Below are positions 21,066-56,051 of a stretch of DNA of 64,000 nt, piece by piece. The translations under genes and the position numbers were made by a program. This stretch comes from Phytoactinopolyspora limicola (lineage in GTDB: Bacteria > Actinomycetota > Actinomycetes > Jiangellales > Jiangellaceae), in NCBI RefSeq assembly GCF_011320225.1, contig NZ_JAAOEN010000004.1, positions 1 to 64,000 of the forward strand. Direction: 5' to 3'. The first letter of the stretch is position 1. Each line of letters opens with the position of its first letter. The notes beneath the pieces were generated by a model. The model saw nothing but the letters and a program-made list of their open reading frames with translations. It made no database searches and was not told the origin of the DNA.

Positions 21066-21800
21066 ATGTCTTCCAAGAACGCCGACAACGACGCCGTGGA
21101 ATCCGCTGGCCCGGTCAGTGCCGCCACCGAACGACTGGTGACGACGGCCAGCGCGTTCGACGCCGAAGCACTGGCCGCACCCAGCTTATGCGCGGGCTGG
21201 ACCCGTGGCCACGTGCTGGCCCACCTAGCGCGCAACGCCGACGCCTTGACCAACCTCCTCACCTGGGCCCGAACAGGTGTGCGAACCCCGATGTACCCGA
21301 GTCGCGAGGAACGCGAGGCCGACATCAACACCGGAGCCGCCGCGTCGCCCGAGGCGCTCCTGACCGATCTTCAGGAGGCATCGGCCCGGTTCACGGCGGC
21401 CGTCACCGACCTGCCCGCCGATCGCTGGCAGCGTGAGGTCGTCACCGGTCCTGCCGCGTCGGGCCGGACCATCCCGGTACGCCGGACCTTGTGGATGCGG
21501 CTGCAGGAGCTCGAAGTGCATCACGTCGACCTCGACGCCGGCTACACCGTCGAACACTGGCCCGACATGTTCGTCGGGCGTGCGCTCACCGAGACCGTAC
21601 GTAGCTTCAGCCAACGTGATGACACCCCCGCCTTCGTACTCGTCACGAACGGTTTCACCACCCGCATCGGCACCGGTGGTCAGGTCACTGTGAGCGGGGA
21701 TTCCCGATCGGTCCTCGCCTGGCTCATGGGCCGGTCCCCCGGCACCGGACTGAGCACCGAGCCGAACCGCCCGCTGCCGGAACTCCCGGCGTGGTTGTGA
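21066..21800 (+). CDS. Maleylpyruvate isomerase-family (DinB-like) mycothiol-dependent enzyme
   Basis: The 244-residue protein begins with the family helix bundle, including LCAGWTRGHVLAHLARNADA (the metal-ligand His region), and has a second conserved patch LQELEVHHVDLDAGY that supplies more His ligands. These features fit mycothiol-dependent maleylpyruvate isomerases and related DinB-fold S-transferases, limited to mycothiol-making actinobacteria. The substrate cannot be deduced. ATG 21066 was chosen; GTG 21057 is an alternative and neither has a strong ribosome site. Its stop overlaps the ATG of the MBL gene (TGATG), so the two are coupled. Confidence 0.85.
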   Translation: MSSKNADNDAVESAGPVSAATERLVTTASAFDAEALAAPSLCAGWTRGHVLAHLARNADALTNLLTWARTGVRTPMYPSREEREADINTGAAASPEALLTDLQEASARFTAAVTDLPADRWQREVVTGPAASGRTIPVRRTLWMRLQELEVHHVDLDAGYTVEHWPDMFVGRALTETVRSFSQRDDTPAFVLVTNGFTTRIGTGGQVTVSGDSRSVLAWLMGRSPGTGLSTEPNRPLPELPAWL

Positions 21801-22453
21801 TGAGCTACCACGGCCACGTCGTCCCGGGCGGTCCACCGGCCGTCCGCGAACTGGCACATGTCATCGTCAACAAAGTGTCCGTCGGCGGTAGCTGGGACAA
21901 CAACGCCTACGTGTTGCGTTGCCGTGACACCGGCGAGGAACTACTCATCGACGCCGCCGACGAGGCCGACAGAATCCTCACCACGTGTGGCGACGGGCCC
22001 CTCATCCGCATCGTGACCACCCACCGGCACCGCGACCATTGGCGAGCGCTCGCCGACGTTACCCGCCATACCGGTGCTATCACCATGGCTCACCCGGACG
22101 ACGCCCCGGCCATCTCCGTACCCACAGCGGAGCTGGTGAACGACGGCGACCGGATCCGATTCGGCCACTGTGAACTCGGCGTCATCCATCTGGTCGGTCA
22201 CACCCCGGGTAGCATCGCGTTGCTCTACGACCCCGCCGGTCAGCCCCACCTGTGGACAGGAGACTCGCTGTTCCCGGGTGGCGTCGGCAAGACCACCTCT
22301 CCCGAAGACTTCGCCTCACTCATCGACGACGTCGAGCACAAACTCTTCAACCGGCTCCCGGACGAGACCTGGGTGTACCCCGGCCACGGTGACGACACCA
22401 CCCTTGGGCGAGAGCGCCCGCACCTGTCCGAATGGCGCAGCCGCGGCTGGTAG
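21800..22453 (+). CDS. Metallo-beta-lactamase-fold hydrolase
   Basis: The 217-residue protein has the metal-binding motif THRHRDHW (about residues 77-84), then GHTPGS with a further His ligand, the bridging Asp in WTGDSLFPGG, and the last ligand in YPGHGDDT. The arrangement resembles glyoxalase II-type thioester hydrolases. Coupling to the mycothiol-type transferase suggests that the two act in sequence on a thiol adduct, for example in detoxification; this is inference. It ends directly against terC on the opposite strand with no bases between the stops. Confidence 0.88.
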   Translation: MSYHGHVVPGGPPAVRELAHVIVNKVSVGGSWDNNAYVLRCRDTGEELLIDAADEADRILTTCGDGPLIRIVTTHRHRDHWRALADVTRHTGAITMAHPDDAPAISVPTAELVNDGDRIRFGHCELGVIHLVGHTPGSIALLYDPAGQPHLWTGDSLFPGGVGKTTSPEDFASLIDDVEHKLFNRLPDETWVYPGHGDDTTLGRERPHLSEWRSRGW

Positions 22454-23443
22454 TTAACGCAGGCGGACCTTGTCGCGGCGGGTCTTGAGCAGGCTGGCCA
22501 CCGTCGTGACGGCTAACGTCGCACCGATGAATCCCAGTGAAACCAGGATCGAGATCTGGGGAACGTGGATCGGCTCTCCCCCATTCACGAATGGCAGATT
22601 GTTCTCGTGAAGTGCGTGCAACACCAGTTTCACGCCGATGAACGCCAGAATGACGGCGAGCCCAGCCGAGAGATATACCAGCCGCTCCAGCAGCCCGCCC
22701 AGGAGGAAATACAGCTGCCGCAACCCCATCAACGCGAACACATTCGCCGTGAAGACGAGGAACATCTCCTGGGTGATACCAAAGATGGCTGGAATCGAGT
22801 CAACCGCGAAGAGTAGGTCGGCCGAGCCGATAGCAACAAAGACGATCAGCATCGGGGTGAGCATCTTGCGGCCGTCGACCACGGTGCGGAACTTGATGCC
22901 GTCATAGTCCGCACTCACCGGGAACCGTCGCCCGATCCGCTGTAGTAGCGGGCTGTCGAACTTCTCGTCCACGTGAGGGCCGCTGGCTTGCTGTTGGGCC
23001 AGCTTCGCCGCCGTGTAGATCAAGAAGACCCCGAAGAGGTAGAACACCCAGGCGAACTGGTTGATGGCCAGGGCCCCGAGGACGATGAACACACCTCGCA
23101 TGACGATGGCTAGCAAGATCCCGAACATCAGTACCGACTGCTGGTACCGCCGTGGCACCCGGAACTGGTTCATGATGATGACGAAGACGAAGAGGTTGTC
23201 GACGCTGAGACTCTTCTCCGTCACCCACCCGGCGAAGAACTCCCCTGACGCCTGGCCACCGCTGATGATGAGCAGGAGGATGCCGAACACGATCGGCAAC
23301 GCGATATAGAACGACACCCATGCCGTGGACTCCCGCATCGACGGCTCATGTGGCCGCCTGGTGACAATCAGGAGATCGACGATGAGCAGGAGAGTCAGCG
23401 TAACGAGGGTGACAACCTCGAACCACACAGGCAGATCCAGCAA
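22454..23443 (-). CDS. terC: TerC-family integral membrane protein, probable Mn2+ exporter
   Basis: The protein (329 residues from TTG 23443) is a typical TerC with nine or so membrane helices and the signatures SGGQASGEFFAGWVTEKSLS, VDNLFVFVIIMNQFRVPRRY and DLLFAVDSIPAIFGIT. The conserved acidic residues in two helices are the presumed metal ligands. TerC relatives under yybP-ykoY riboswitches export manganese or metallate secreted enzymes. TTG 23443 is chosen because a GAGGGAG site lies 8 nt upstream; a TTG at 23479 has none. The leader forms a manganese riboswitch (see 23452-23600). Confidence 0.9.
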   Translation of the reverse strand: MLDLPVWFEVVTLVTLTLLLIVDLLIVTRRPHEPSMRESTAWVSFYIALPIVFGILLLIISGGQASGEFFAGWVTEKSLSVDNLFVFVIIMNQFRVPRRYQQSVLMFGILLAIVMRGVFIVLGALAINQFAWVFYLFGVFLIYTAAKLAQQQASGPHVDEKFDSPLLQRIGRRFPVSADYDGIKFRTVVDGRKMLTPMLIVFVAIGSADLLFAVDSIPAIFGITQEMFLVFTANVFALMGLRQLYFLLGGLLERLVYLSAGLAVILAFIGVKLVLHALHENNLPFVNGGEPIHVPQISILVSLGFIGATLAVTTVASLLKTRRDKVRLR

Positions 23444-23451
23444 CGGGCAGG

Positions 23452-23600
23452 CTCCCTCTCCGGTCGCTTCGACACACAACGGTTGTTGCGTGCGACCGGA
23501 GGTCTCTTCCGCCCTGAACTAGCTGGGGCCGACGGGGCCGGGGTCCGTTGCCAGATCCGAGATGACGACACCGCCGCGAAGGAATACTCCCCTCCACTAC
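23452..23600 (-). promoter_or_regulatory. yybP-ykoY manganese riboswitch in the terC leader
   Basis: On the minus strand the leader reads GGAGG-GGAGTA (23585-23595) at its 5' end and GAGA-CCTCC (23498-23506) at its 3' end. The two conserved loops of the yybP-ykoY aptamer (GGGGAGTA and GAGACC) are thus joined by a P1 helix GGAGG/CCTCC. The 3' P1 strand is also part of CTCCGGTCGC, which can pair with GCGACCGGAG (23458-23467) downstream. That second arm includes the start of the ribosome site GGAGAGGGAG (23452-23461). Metal-bound P1 would free the ribosome site, so this is a translational ON switch. Motif recognition is from memory of the consensus. Confidence 0.78.
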
Positions 23601-23632
23601 GCCCACTATCTCACACCCGGATGACCAGGAGG

Positions 23633-25741
<2,109 letters not shown>

Positions 25742-26083
25742 AGAGACCACGGTATGTCCTGACACCGACAACGTCATGCGTGACTGTCGGAGCCGTGTTC
25801 CGGACGCCGGGGACGACGGGGTGCAATCGAACACTGCGGGAACAGGCGACGCCGGGTGGAGAGGCTGGTTTGCGCTTGGAATCGCGGCGTCAGCGAGGCT
25901 GACACGCCCGCCGGCCAGCCGGACGACCCGCTCATCGAGGCGTCAGCGGCGCCGAGGAGACGACCTCGAACACCACTCACTGACGAGGAAGTGGATGCTA
26001 TGCGAACGTGACGAGAAATCGGCGCCAGGAGTGTCATCCGCGGGGTGAAGAAGCGGGCCGGGGTCGGCCTTTAAACTGAGCCG
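25742..26083. other. 342-bp divergent intergenic region (uvrB / hydrolase)
   Basis: It holds the promoters of uvrB and of the alpha/beta hydrolase gene. A TCGAAC half-site is present near 25827, but no complete LexA palindrome was found. No supported gene. Confidence 0.45.
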
Positions 26084-55964: not shown

Positions 55965-56051
55965 GCCCGAGTGGAGAAATTGGCAAACTCGATGGATTCA
56001 AAATCCATTGTCCGTAAGGGCTTGCGGGTTCGAGTCCCGCCTCGGGCACCA
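55965..56051 (+). tRNA. tRNA-Leu (anticodon CAA)
   Basis: Acceptor arms GCCCGAG and CTCGGGC pair over seven bases. The anticodon stem ATGGA/TCCAT encloses the loop TTCAAAA, giving anticodon CAA (codon TTG). A long variable arm (about 15 nt) identifies the class II tRNA, and the T arm GCGGG-TTCGAGT-CCCGC is standard. The CCA end is encoded (56049-56051). Confidence 0.97.

Follow-up and report, generated by a model that had tools for sequence, protein, structure and literature searches.

A predicted alx-type yybP-ykoY manganese riboswitch that may mask the ribosome site of terC in Phytoactinopolyspora limicola

INTRODUCTION

Does the leader of terC in Phytoactinopolyspora limicola contain a Mn2+ riboswitch, and would that riboswitch control the gene by covering and uncovering its ribosome site? 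The leader lies on the minus strand of the window, the whole stretch of 64,000 nt that we analysed. The riboswitch class yybP-ykoY, its ligand and its link to TerC/Alx proteins are already known, and RF00080 has been annotated in one terC leader of an actinobacterium. A reading made from the letters of the window (the sequence-only reading) had placed an aptamer of this class before terC, and had noted that the strand closing the aptamer could instead pair with the ribosome site. Our analysis indicates that the leader is very probably a yybP-ykoY Mn2+ riboswitch of the alx type, with a 7-nt L3, that controls the translation of terC.

RESULTS

Architecture of the leader and identity of the gene

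On inspection of the sequence, positions 23597-23498 of the minus strand fit the P1-L1-P2-P3(L3)-P4 plan of the yybP-ykoY architecture (Table 1). Helices P1/P2 and P3/P4 are arranged round a four-way junction (27 pairs, five helices), and the conserved L1 (GGGGAGUA ... GAGACC) is present together with an L3 that carries the adenosine. The elements named by the sequence-only reading, namely the GGAGG/CCTCC closure and both conserved loops, were each found where it had placed them.

The gene behind the leader is indeed terC, as had been claimed. Its product matches Pfam TerC (1.5e-49) and exceeds the cut-off of NCBIfam TIGR03718, 'R_switched_Alx' (361.1 bits against 246.4), and the aptamer precedes a gene for Mn handling (23443-22454), as it does in the class. 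The neighbours of terC are uvrB (23633-25834, minus strand) and a gene for a metallo-beta-lactamase-fold protein (21791-22453, plus strand). An in-frame TTG at 23479 was considered as the start codon and discarded, because the related loci L003-L005 carry a GTG that matches the TTG at 23443 and, by eye, no purine-rich ribosome site precedes 23479.

Table 1. Features of the terC leader region (window coordinates) and genes of the ~290-residue protein (coordinates within each named locus)
Feature	Positions	Strand	Basis or remark
-10-like GATAGT of presumed promoter	23605..23610	-	GATACT in L002, L003 at similar distance from P1
Predicted yybP-ykoY-type Mn2+ aptamer	23498..23597	-	R1 84.2 bits, E 3.4e-17 (training row); covariation
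P1 5′ strand GGAGG	23591..23595	-	partner 23498-23502
L1 5′ strand GGAGTA	23585..23590	-	invariant in 98/98 aligned matches
P2 5′ strand TTCC	23581..23584	-	partner GGAA 23507-23510
P3 lower 5′ strand CGGCGGTGTCG	23566..23576	-	partner 23530-23540, 10/11 paired, one U-C mismatch
L3 TCATCTC	23559..23565	-	loop C and A invariant in 98/98; E. coli alx has TCATTAC
P3 lower 3′ strand CGGCCCCGTCG	23530..23540	-	pairs with P3 lower 5′ strand
P4 hairpin (GCCC.../...GGGC)	23511..23529	-	helix 5, 93.9% of cells paired
P2 3′ strand GGAA	23507..23510	-	pairs with TTCC 23581-23584
L1 3′ strand GAGA	23503..23506	-	AGAC invariant in 98/98
P1 3′ strand CCTCC, switching strand	23498..23502	-	sequence
Masking helix 5′ strand CTCCGGTCGC	23492..23501	-	ligand-free fold, pair probabilities 0.71-1.0
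Hairpin between masking strands	23473..23492	-	predicted fold
Masking helix 3′ strand GCGACCGGAG	23458..23467	-	perfect complement of CTCCGGTCGC
Ribosome site GGAGAGGGAG	23452..23461	-	first four bases within masking helix
terC, TTG start, TerC/Alx family metal homeostasis membrane protein, 329 aa	22454..23443	-	Pfam, NCBIfam
Genes of the ~290-residue protein	L151 7157-7990; L172 6215-7159; L210 1987-2862 (-); L225 3361-4257; L138 275-1126; L105 280-1116		

Comparison with known members of the class

The window shares with the E. coli alx leader the GGGGAGUA segment, a P2 set directly on L1, the L3 CGUCAUNNC, the GAGACC segment, the closing strand of P1 and a TerC/Alx gene downstream. The two differ in the first P2 pair (U-A in the window, A-U in alx), in the spacing of P3 from the second P2 strand, which is larger in alx, and in what follows the aptamer: in the window, the ribosome site some 40 nt further on serves as the masking partner, whereas the start codon of alx lies about 80 nt after the aptamer. 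The mntP-like members (E. coli mntP, the actinobacterial elements L031-L034 and L038, a second element of the P. limicola genome) have the GGGAGUA L1 and the four-helix plan in common with the window, but their L3 resembles ACAUACU where the window has UCAUCUC.

The invariant adenosine of L3 is presumably A41 of the Lactococcus lactis aptamer, as judged by its position and numbering. According to the available text of PMC11087558, the A41U substitution is described as abolishing Mn2+ binding, Mg2+ and Mn2+ sites are found at L1/L3, and the crystal structure of this Mn2+ aptamer has, like the window, P1 on P2, P3 on P4, a four-way junction and the L1/L3 pair. The L. lactis member is a transcriptional antiterminator, whereas no terminator-like site lies in 23380-23720 of the window. 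Among actinobacterial terC genes, cg2157 of Corynebacterium glutamicum has a leader annotated as yybP-ykoY, with transcript ends that were observed; the Rfam version of that study gave it 49.13 bits (available portion of PMC3890552).

Detection by covariance models

A scan with the Rfam covariance model had been suggested alongside the sequence-only reading as a check of the class, and it came back empty. RF00080 (Rfam 15; 177 positions, cut-off 45 bits) gave no match in the whole window at its gathering score or in the whole P. limicola genome, and none when the leader was scanned by itself with E values up to 10 allowed. At gathering score, the sole Rfam match of the window is a tRNA gene (55965-56048, plus strand). 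Across the bacterial class of P. limicola, RF00080 found weak matches in 4 of 197 genomes and exceeded its cut-off in 0 of 197. A pattern scan of named loci yielded at least 116 stretches in Actinobacteria, Firmicutes, Proteobacteria and a few others, from which the 80 listed were used, 30 with the model R1 described below and 18 with RF00080; none of those 18, which share the sequence type and span three phyla, passed the RF00080 cut-off.

As controls, we applied RF00080 to the mntP and alx regions of E. coli K-12 (L035 and L036), both with leaders reported to be Mn2+ riboswitches of the yybP-ykoY class (PMC9603457). Neither was recovered at gathering score; at E up to 10, mntP reached 41.6 of the 45 bits and alx went unreported. 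The actinobacterial leaders L031-L034 received 23.7-32.4 bits. Since the same model fails on both E. coli alx and mntP, its negative result does not refute an alx-type element, and the alx type with its 7-nt L3 is a form that the Rfam model leaves unrecognised.

A model of the leader type itself, R1, was built from A2, a MAFFT alignment of 25 related terC leaders in which the window is one row. The leaders were obtained by searching for TerC in 40 genomes, that of P. limicola and others from its genus, family and class, of which 37 have it; of the first 30 terC loci, 25 carry the leader and five (L021, L027-L030) lack it. The hand-drawn structure of A2 has 27 pairs, comprising P1 (GGAGG/CCUCC), P2 (UCC/GGA), an 11-pair lower P3, the base of the upper P3 and P4. 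Searched against the 6.6-Mb genome, R1 gives the window 84.2 bits and an E value of 3.4e-17, partly by construction, as the window is among the 25 training rows. E. coli alx, outside the training set, is found with 35.1 bits and an E value of 6.6e-7 over 39.5 kb, E. coli mntP only marginally (17.7 bits, E 0.017), and the four actinobacterial elements weakly seen by RF00080 at 29.1-51.5 bits. In the P. limicola genome, R1 has two matches under E 1e-8, before the TerC gene and a GDT1 gene, and the third match comes only at E 0.079. At E <= 0.001, 231 of 393 genomes of the class contain a match, training genomes counted in; across a spread of the phylum, just 60 of 296 genomes do. All 30 pattern-chosen loci also match R1, as expected for loci chosen by a sequence pattern.

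Conservation and covariation of the aptamer

We next consider the model-fitted alignment A3, whose 98 rows (97 distinct) comprise 81 matches from regions outside the window's family, 12 training rows, three mntP-like leaders, alx and L038. Its 27 pairs are kept in 97.1% of cells, with individual helices at 93.9-100%, and both sides change in 22 of the 27 pairs compared to 15.0 in shuffles. When the partners were slid by 1-3 columns, pairing fell to 38-54%. In A2, which was not fitted to a model, 12 pairs change on both sides compared to 4.3 in shuffles, and the helices are paired in 90.9-100% of cells; the window row keeps 25 of the 27 pairs, and rows L020 and L023 (14 and 22 of 27 pairs) look misaligned in P3. 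The fold energy of the window leader is only moderately lower than that of shuffled sequences (z -2.35; 4 of 200 shuffles were as low).

In the loops, GGAGUA, AGAC and the C and A of L3 are invariant in all 98 rows of A3. Read by alignment column, L3 spells UCAUCAC in 51 of the 98 leaders, UCAUCUC in the window and UCAUUAC in alx. The three modelled pairs of P2 are formed in 100% of A3 cells. The base after GUA makes a fourth P2 pair in 86 of 98 rows (UA in 67, the pair of the window, CG in 14, GC in 4, AU in 1) and is unpaired in 12; for this reason, we dropped the idea of a new, unpaired base in the L1 of Actinobacteria.

Genes downstream of R1 matches

We picked 80 regions by hand, not at random, from the stronger R1 matches listed; all lie outside the family of P. 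limicola, different genera were preferred, and no training locus is among them. They contain 81 R1 matches, 78 of which are followed on the same strand by a TerC/Alx homologue that starts within 200 nt. Two of the three matches without TerC precede the same kind of unannotated protein. Among the 80 pattern stretches listed, a search with four query proteins found TerC/Alx within 2.5 kb downstream in 50 and not in 30, and the same leader type occurs at named loci in Mycolicibacterium, Microbacterium, Kribbella, Nonomuraea and others. Together, the R1 match, the covariation and the TerC synteny at loci outside the training set uphold the assignment to yybP-ykoY made by the sequence-only reading.

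Several further arrangements were observed. The P. limicola genome has a second Mn2+-type riboswitch with an mntP-like L3 (L038 1501-1594, G000:C1:1075558-1075651; 53.6 bits, E 2.1e-9), which precedes a GDT1 gene (PF01169, 7.1e-47) and whose closing strand CCUUCGA is complementary to a UCGAAGG shortly before the ATG; the whole-genome RF00080 scan did not report it. At L115, two R1 matches stand 1.3 kb apart on one strand, each with its own TerC homologue no more than 40 nt on (55.7% and 60.1% identity to the TerC of the window), as a tandem of riboswitch and terC. Leaders of the R1 type also lie directly before the gene of an AMP-binding enzyme (L192 5465-7348) and before that of a cation P-type ATPase (L214 733-3465, minus strand).

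In addition, a protein of ~290 residues is encoded downstream of the same riboswitch at four Microbacterium loci and two others (Table 1). It had no Pfam match in the five of five sequences tested and no NCBIfam match in the three of three tested, its core is conserved around ADRAAIARYDYL, and it is present in 4 of 296 genomes of the phylum. We regard it as a candidate new Mn-handling protein.

The predicted masking helix and the ribosome site

The sequence-only reading had also proposed that the P1 3′ strand can pair ten-for-ten with a stretch ending in the ribosome site of the TTG at 23443. This proved exact, positions 23501-23492 being fully complementary to 23467-23458. The resulting helix has ten pairs (CUCCGGUCGC/GCGACCGGAG), starts one base into the P1 strand and covers half of the ribosome site. 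Like other members of the class, the leader offers the P1 3′ strand an alternative partner; that expression is controlled through it is a prediction from these pairings.

In the ligand-free prediction, the masking helix is formed and P1 has a probability of zero. For a 169-nt stretch, the predicted energy is -64.0 kcal/mol in the aptamer state compared to -83.0 kcal/mol in the masked state. Because the aptamer state is 19 kcal/mol weaker, it is implausible that a bound ion could drive switching at equilibrium; the choice would have to be kinetic, made co-transcriptionally. In L. lactis, the switch helix P1.1 folds co-transcriptionally (available text of PMC11087558). Positions 23380-23720 contain no terminator-like site, and no intrinsic terminator was found there.

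The same fold suggests another contact in the window (23432-23560, minus strand), where a helix of about 15 pairs is predicted between the P3 tip CGGATCTGGCAACGG and the region of the start codon CCGTTGCTGGATCTG. By eye, and in one relative (L002), this pairing is seemingly not kept. It may be due to chance, or possibly serve as an extra lock on the start codon.

The masking pairing was counted in 95 leaders (the 81 matches and 14 training leaders) by looking 3-18 bases upstream of the homologous start codon for five bases complementary to the P1 3′ strand. A partner was present in 67 of 95; the 28 dropped were three without TerC and 25 without a full five-base site, and among these 25 were the window and eight other training leaders; the nearest relatives of the window also stand outside the count. 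As CCUCC opposite GGAGG is trivially expected of any Shine-Dalgarno sequence, covariation was scored beyond it. Extension positions 2, 3 and 4 are Watson-Crick paired in 62, 46 and 28 of the 67 leaders, numbers that none of 2000 shuffles reached at any of the three positions, the shuffles ignoring relatedness and the row L115_2592 being scored against the second of two terC copies. Covariation was absent at positions 1 and 5 (186 and 992 of the 2000 shuffles, respectively). Because positions 2-4 exceed all shuffles, the closing strand and the ribosome-site stretch appear to have co-evolved in these 67 leaders, a set that does not include the window.

The ribosome site was also compared with the P1 strand. 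Of 84 leaders with CCTCC in P1, 64 have GGAGG alone and 6 GAAGG alone as the ribosome site; for the 16 leaders with CCTTC, the numbers are 3 and 5 (Fisher 0.001 on these four cells). With phyla mixed, 39 of 161 loci left out and at least one GAAGG far from its start codon, this contingency is only suggestive of co-variation. An earlier score of complementarity against shuffled leaders (p <= 0.05 in 40 of 77) was set aside, as any GGAGG ribosome site complements CCUCC.

Position of the transcript start

For the terC transcript, a start close to the edge of P1 (about 23597-23599) is a guess guided by the sequence upstream. TANNNT motifs in 98 leaders (81 plus 17 training) peak 13 to 15 bases before the start of the aptamer (11, 10 and 10 occurrences), and 37 of 81 other leaders have one that starts 11-18 nt before it. 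The GATAGT of the window does not fit TANNNT, and a sigma-70 consensus scan of the window leader found no promoter match. For the terC leader of C. glutamicum annotated as RF00080 (2,043,157-2,042,989), the observed start is 2,043,151 (available portion of PMC3890552).

DISCUSSION

These results are consistent with a translational switch in which two helices compete for one strand. At low Mn2+, the downstream GCGACCGGAG would capture the P1 3′ strand, hiding the ribosome site over its first half. Mn2+, once available, would dock L1 and L3 together with Mg2+, so that P1 (GGAGG/CCUCC) closes during transcription. With P1 closed, the masking helix could not form, ribosomes would start at the TTG, and the TerC/Alx protein made would handle or export Mn2+. 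We infer Mn2+ as the ligand and the ON direction from the class, and the co-transcriptional choice from the predicted energies of the two states. In E. coli, mntP and alx reporters both go up with Mn (available text of PMC9603457).

The same aptamer could instead act mainly by premature transcription end, for example through Rho on an untranslated leader exposed by masking. According to the available text of PMC13274385, the Vibrio parahaemolyticus terC that follows a yybP-ykoY element is induced by Mn with a rise of the mRNA itself, the authors leaving open the level of control, and 2024 work on Rho and the riboswitch is cited there for E. coli. The leader of the window has no terminator-like site, and in the leaders counted the conserved partner of the P1 strand is the ribosome site itself. 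We consider premature termination unlikely to be the main control; it is compatible with translational control of terC and does not exclude it.

It is also rather improbable that the aptamer answers to alkalinity, or to another metal, as much as to Mn2+, as is reported for E. coli alx. The UCAUCUC of the window resembles the UCAUUAC of alx, and alx and mntP reporters answer Mn and alkaline pH together (available text of PMC9603457), but the core bases of L1 and L3 are those of the Mn2+ class. A conserved structured leader that binds no small ligand, such as a protein site or a stability element, would also be conserved, and conservation alone proves no ligand; nevertheless, the loop bases are common to E. 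coli alx and L038, both found by R1 outside its training set, and we hold this explanation to be very improbable. Chance resemblance in GC-rich DNA, which the Rfam negative and the moderate fold energy might have suggested, has a negligible probability and is regarded as already refuted by covariation and TerC synteny at loci outside the training set.

Carried further, a translational Mn2+ riboswitch before terC invites a joint reading: that the alx-type aptamer is a standing regulator of TerC across Actinobacteria, overlooked by Rfam, that it senses Mn2+ and alkalinity jointly, and that it was recruited in Microbacterium before a new Mn-handling protein of ~290 residues. As a whole, this reading is speculative and improbable. 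Among the open-access papers listed in our searches, none was seen to describe the alx type as general in Actinobacteria, which is a weak negative.

A Mn2+ riboswitch before a TerC gene is expected biology, and the leader of P. limicola, as read here, is one more ordinary example of an established class. Its readable ribosome-site helix makes it a compact translational switch for tests. At its cut-off, RF00080 misses the alx type in E. coli and in the sampled Actinobacteria, with matches in 0 of 197 genomes compared to 231 of 393 (training genomes included) for R1 at E <= 0.001. Consequently, annotation by RF00080 understates the Mn2+ riboswitch control of TerC in the sampled Actinobacteria.
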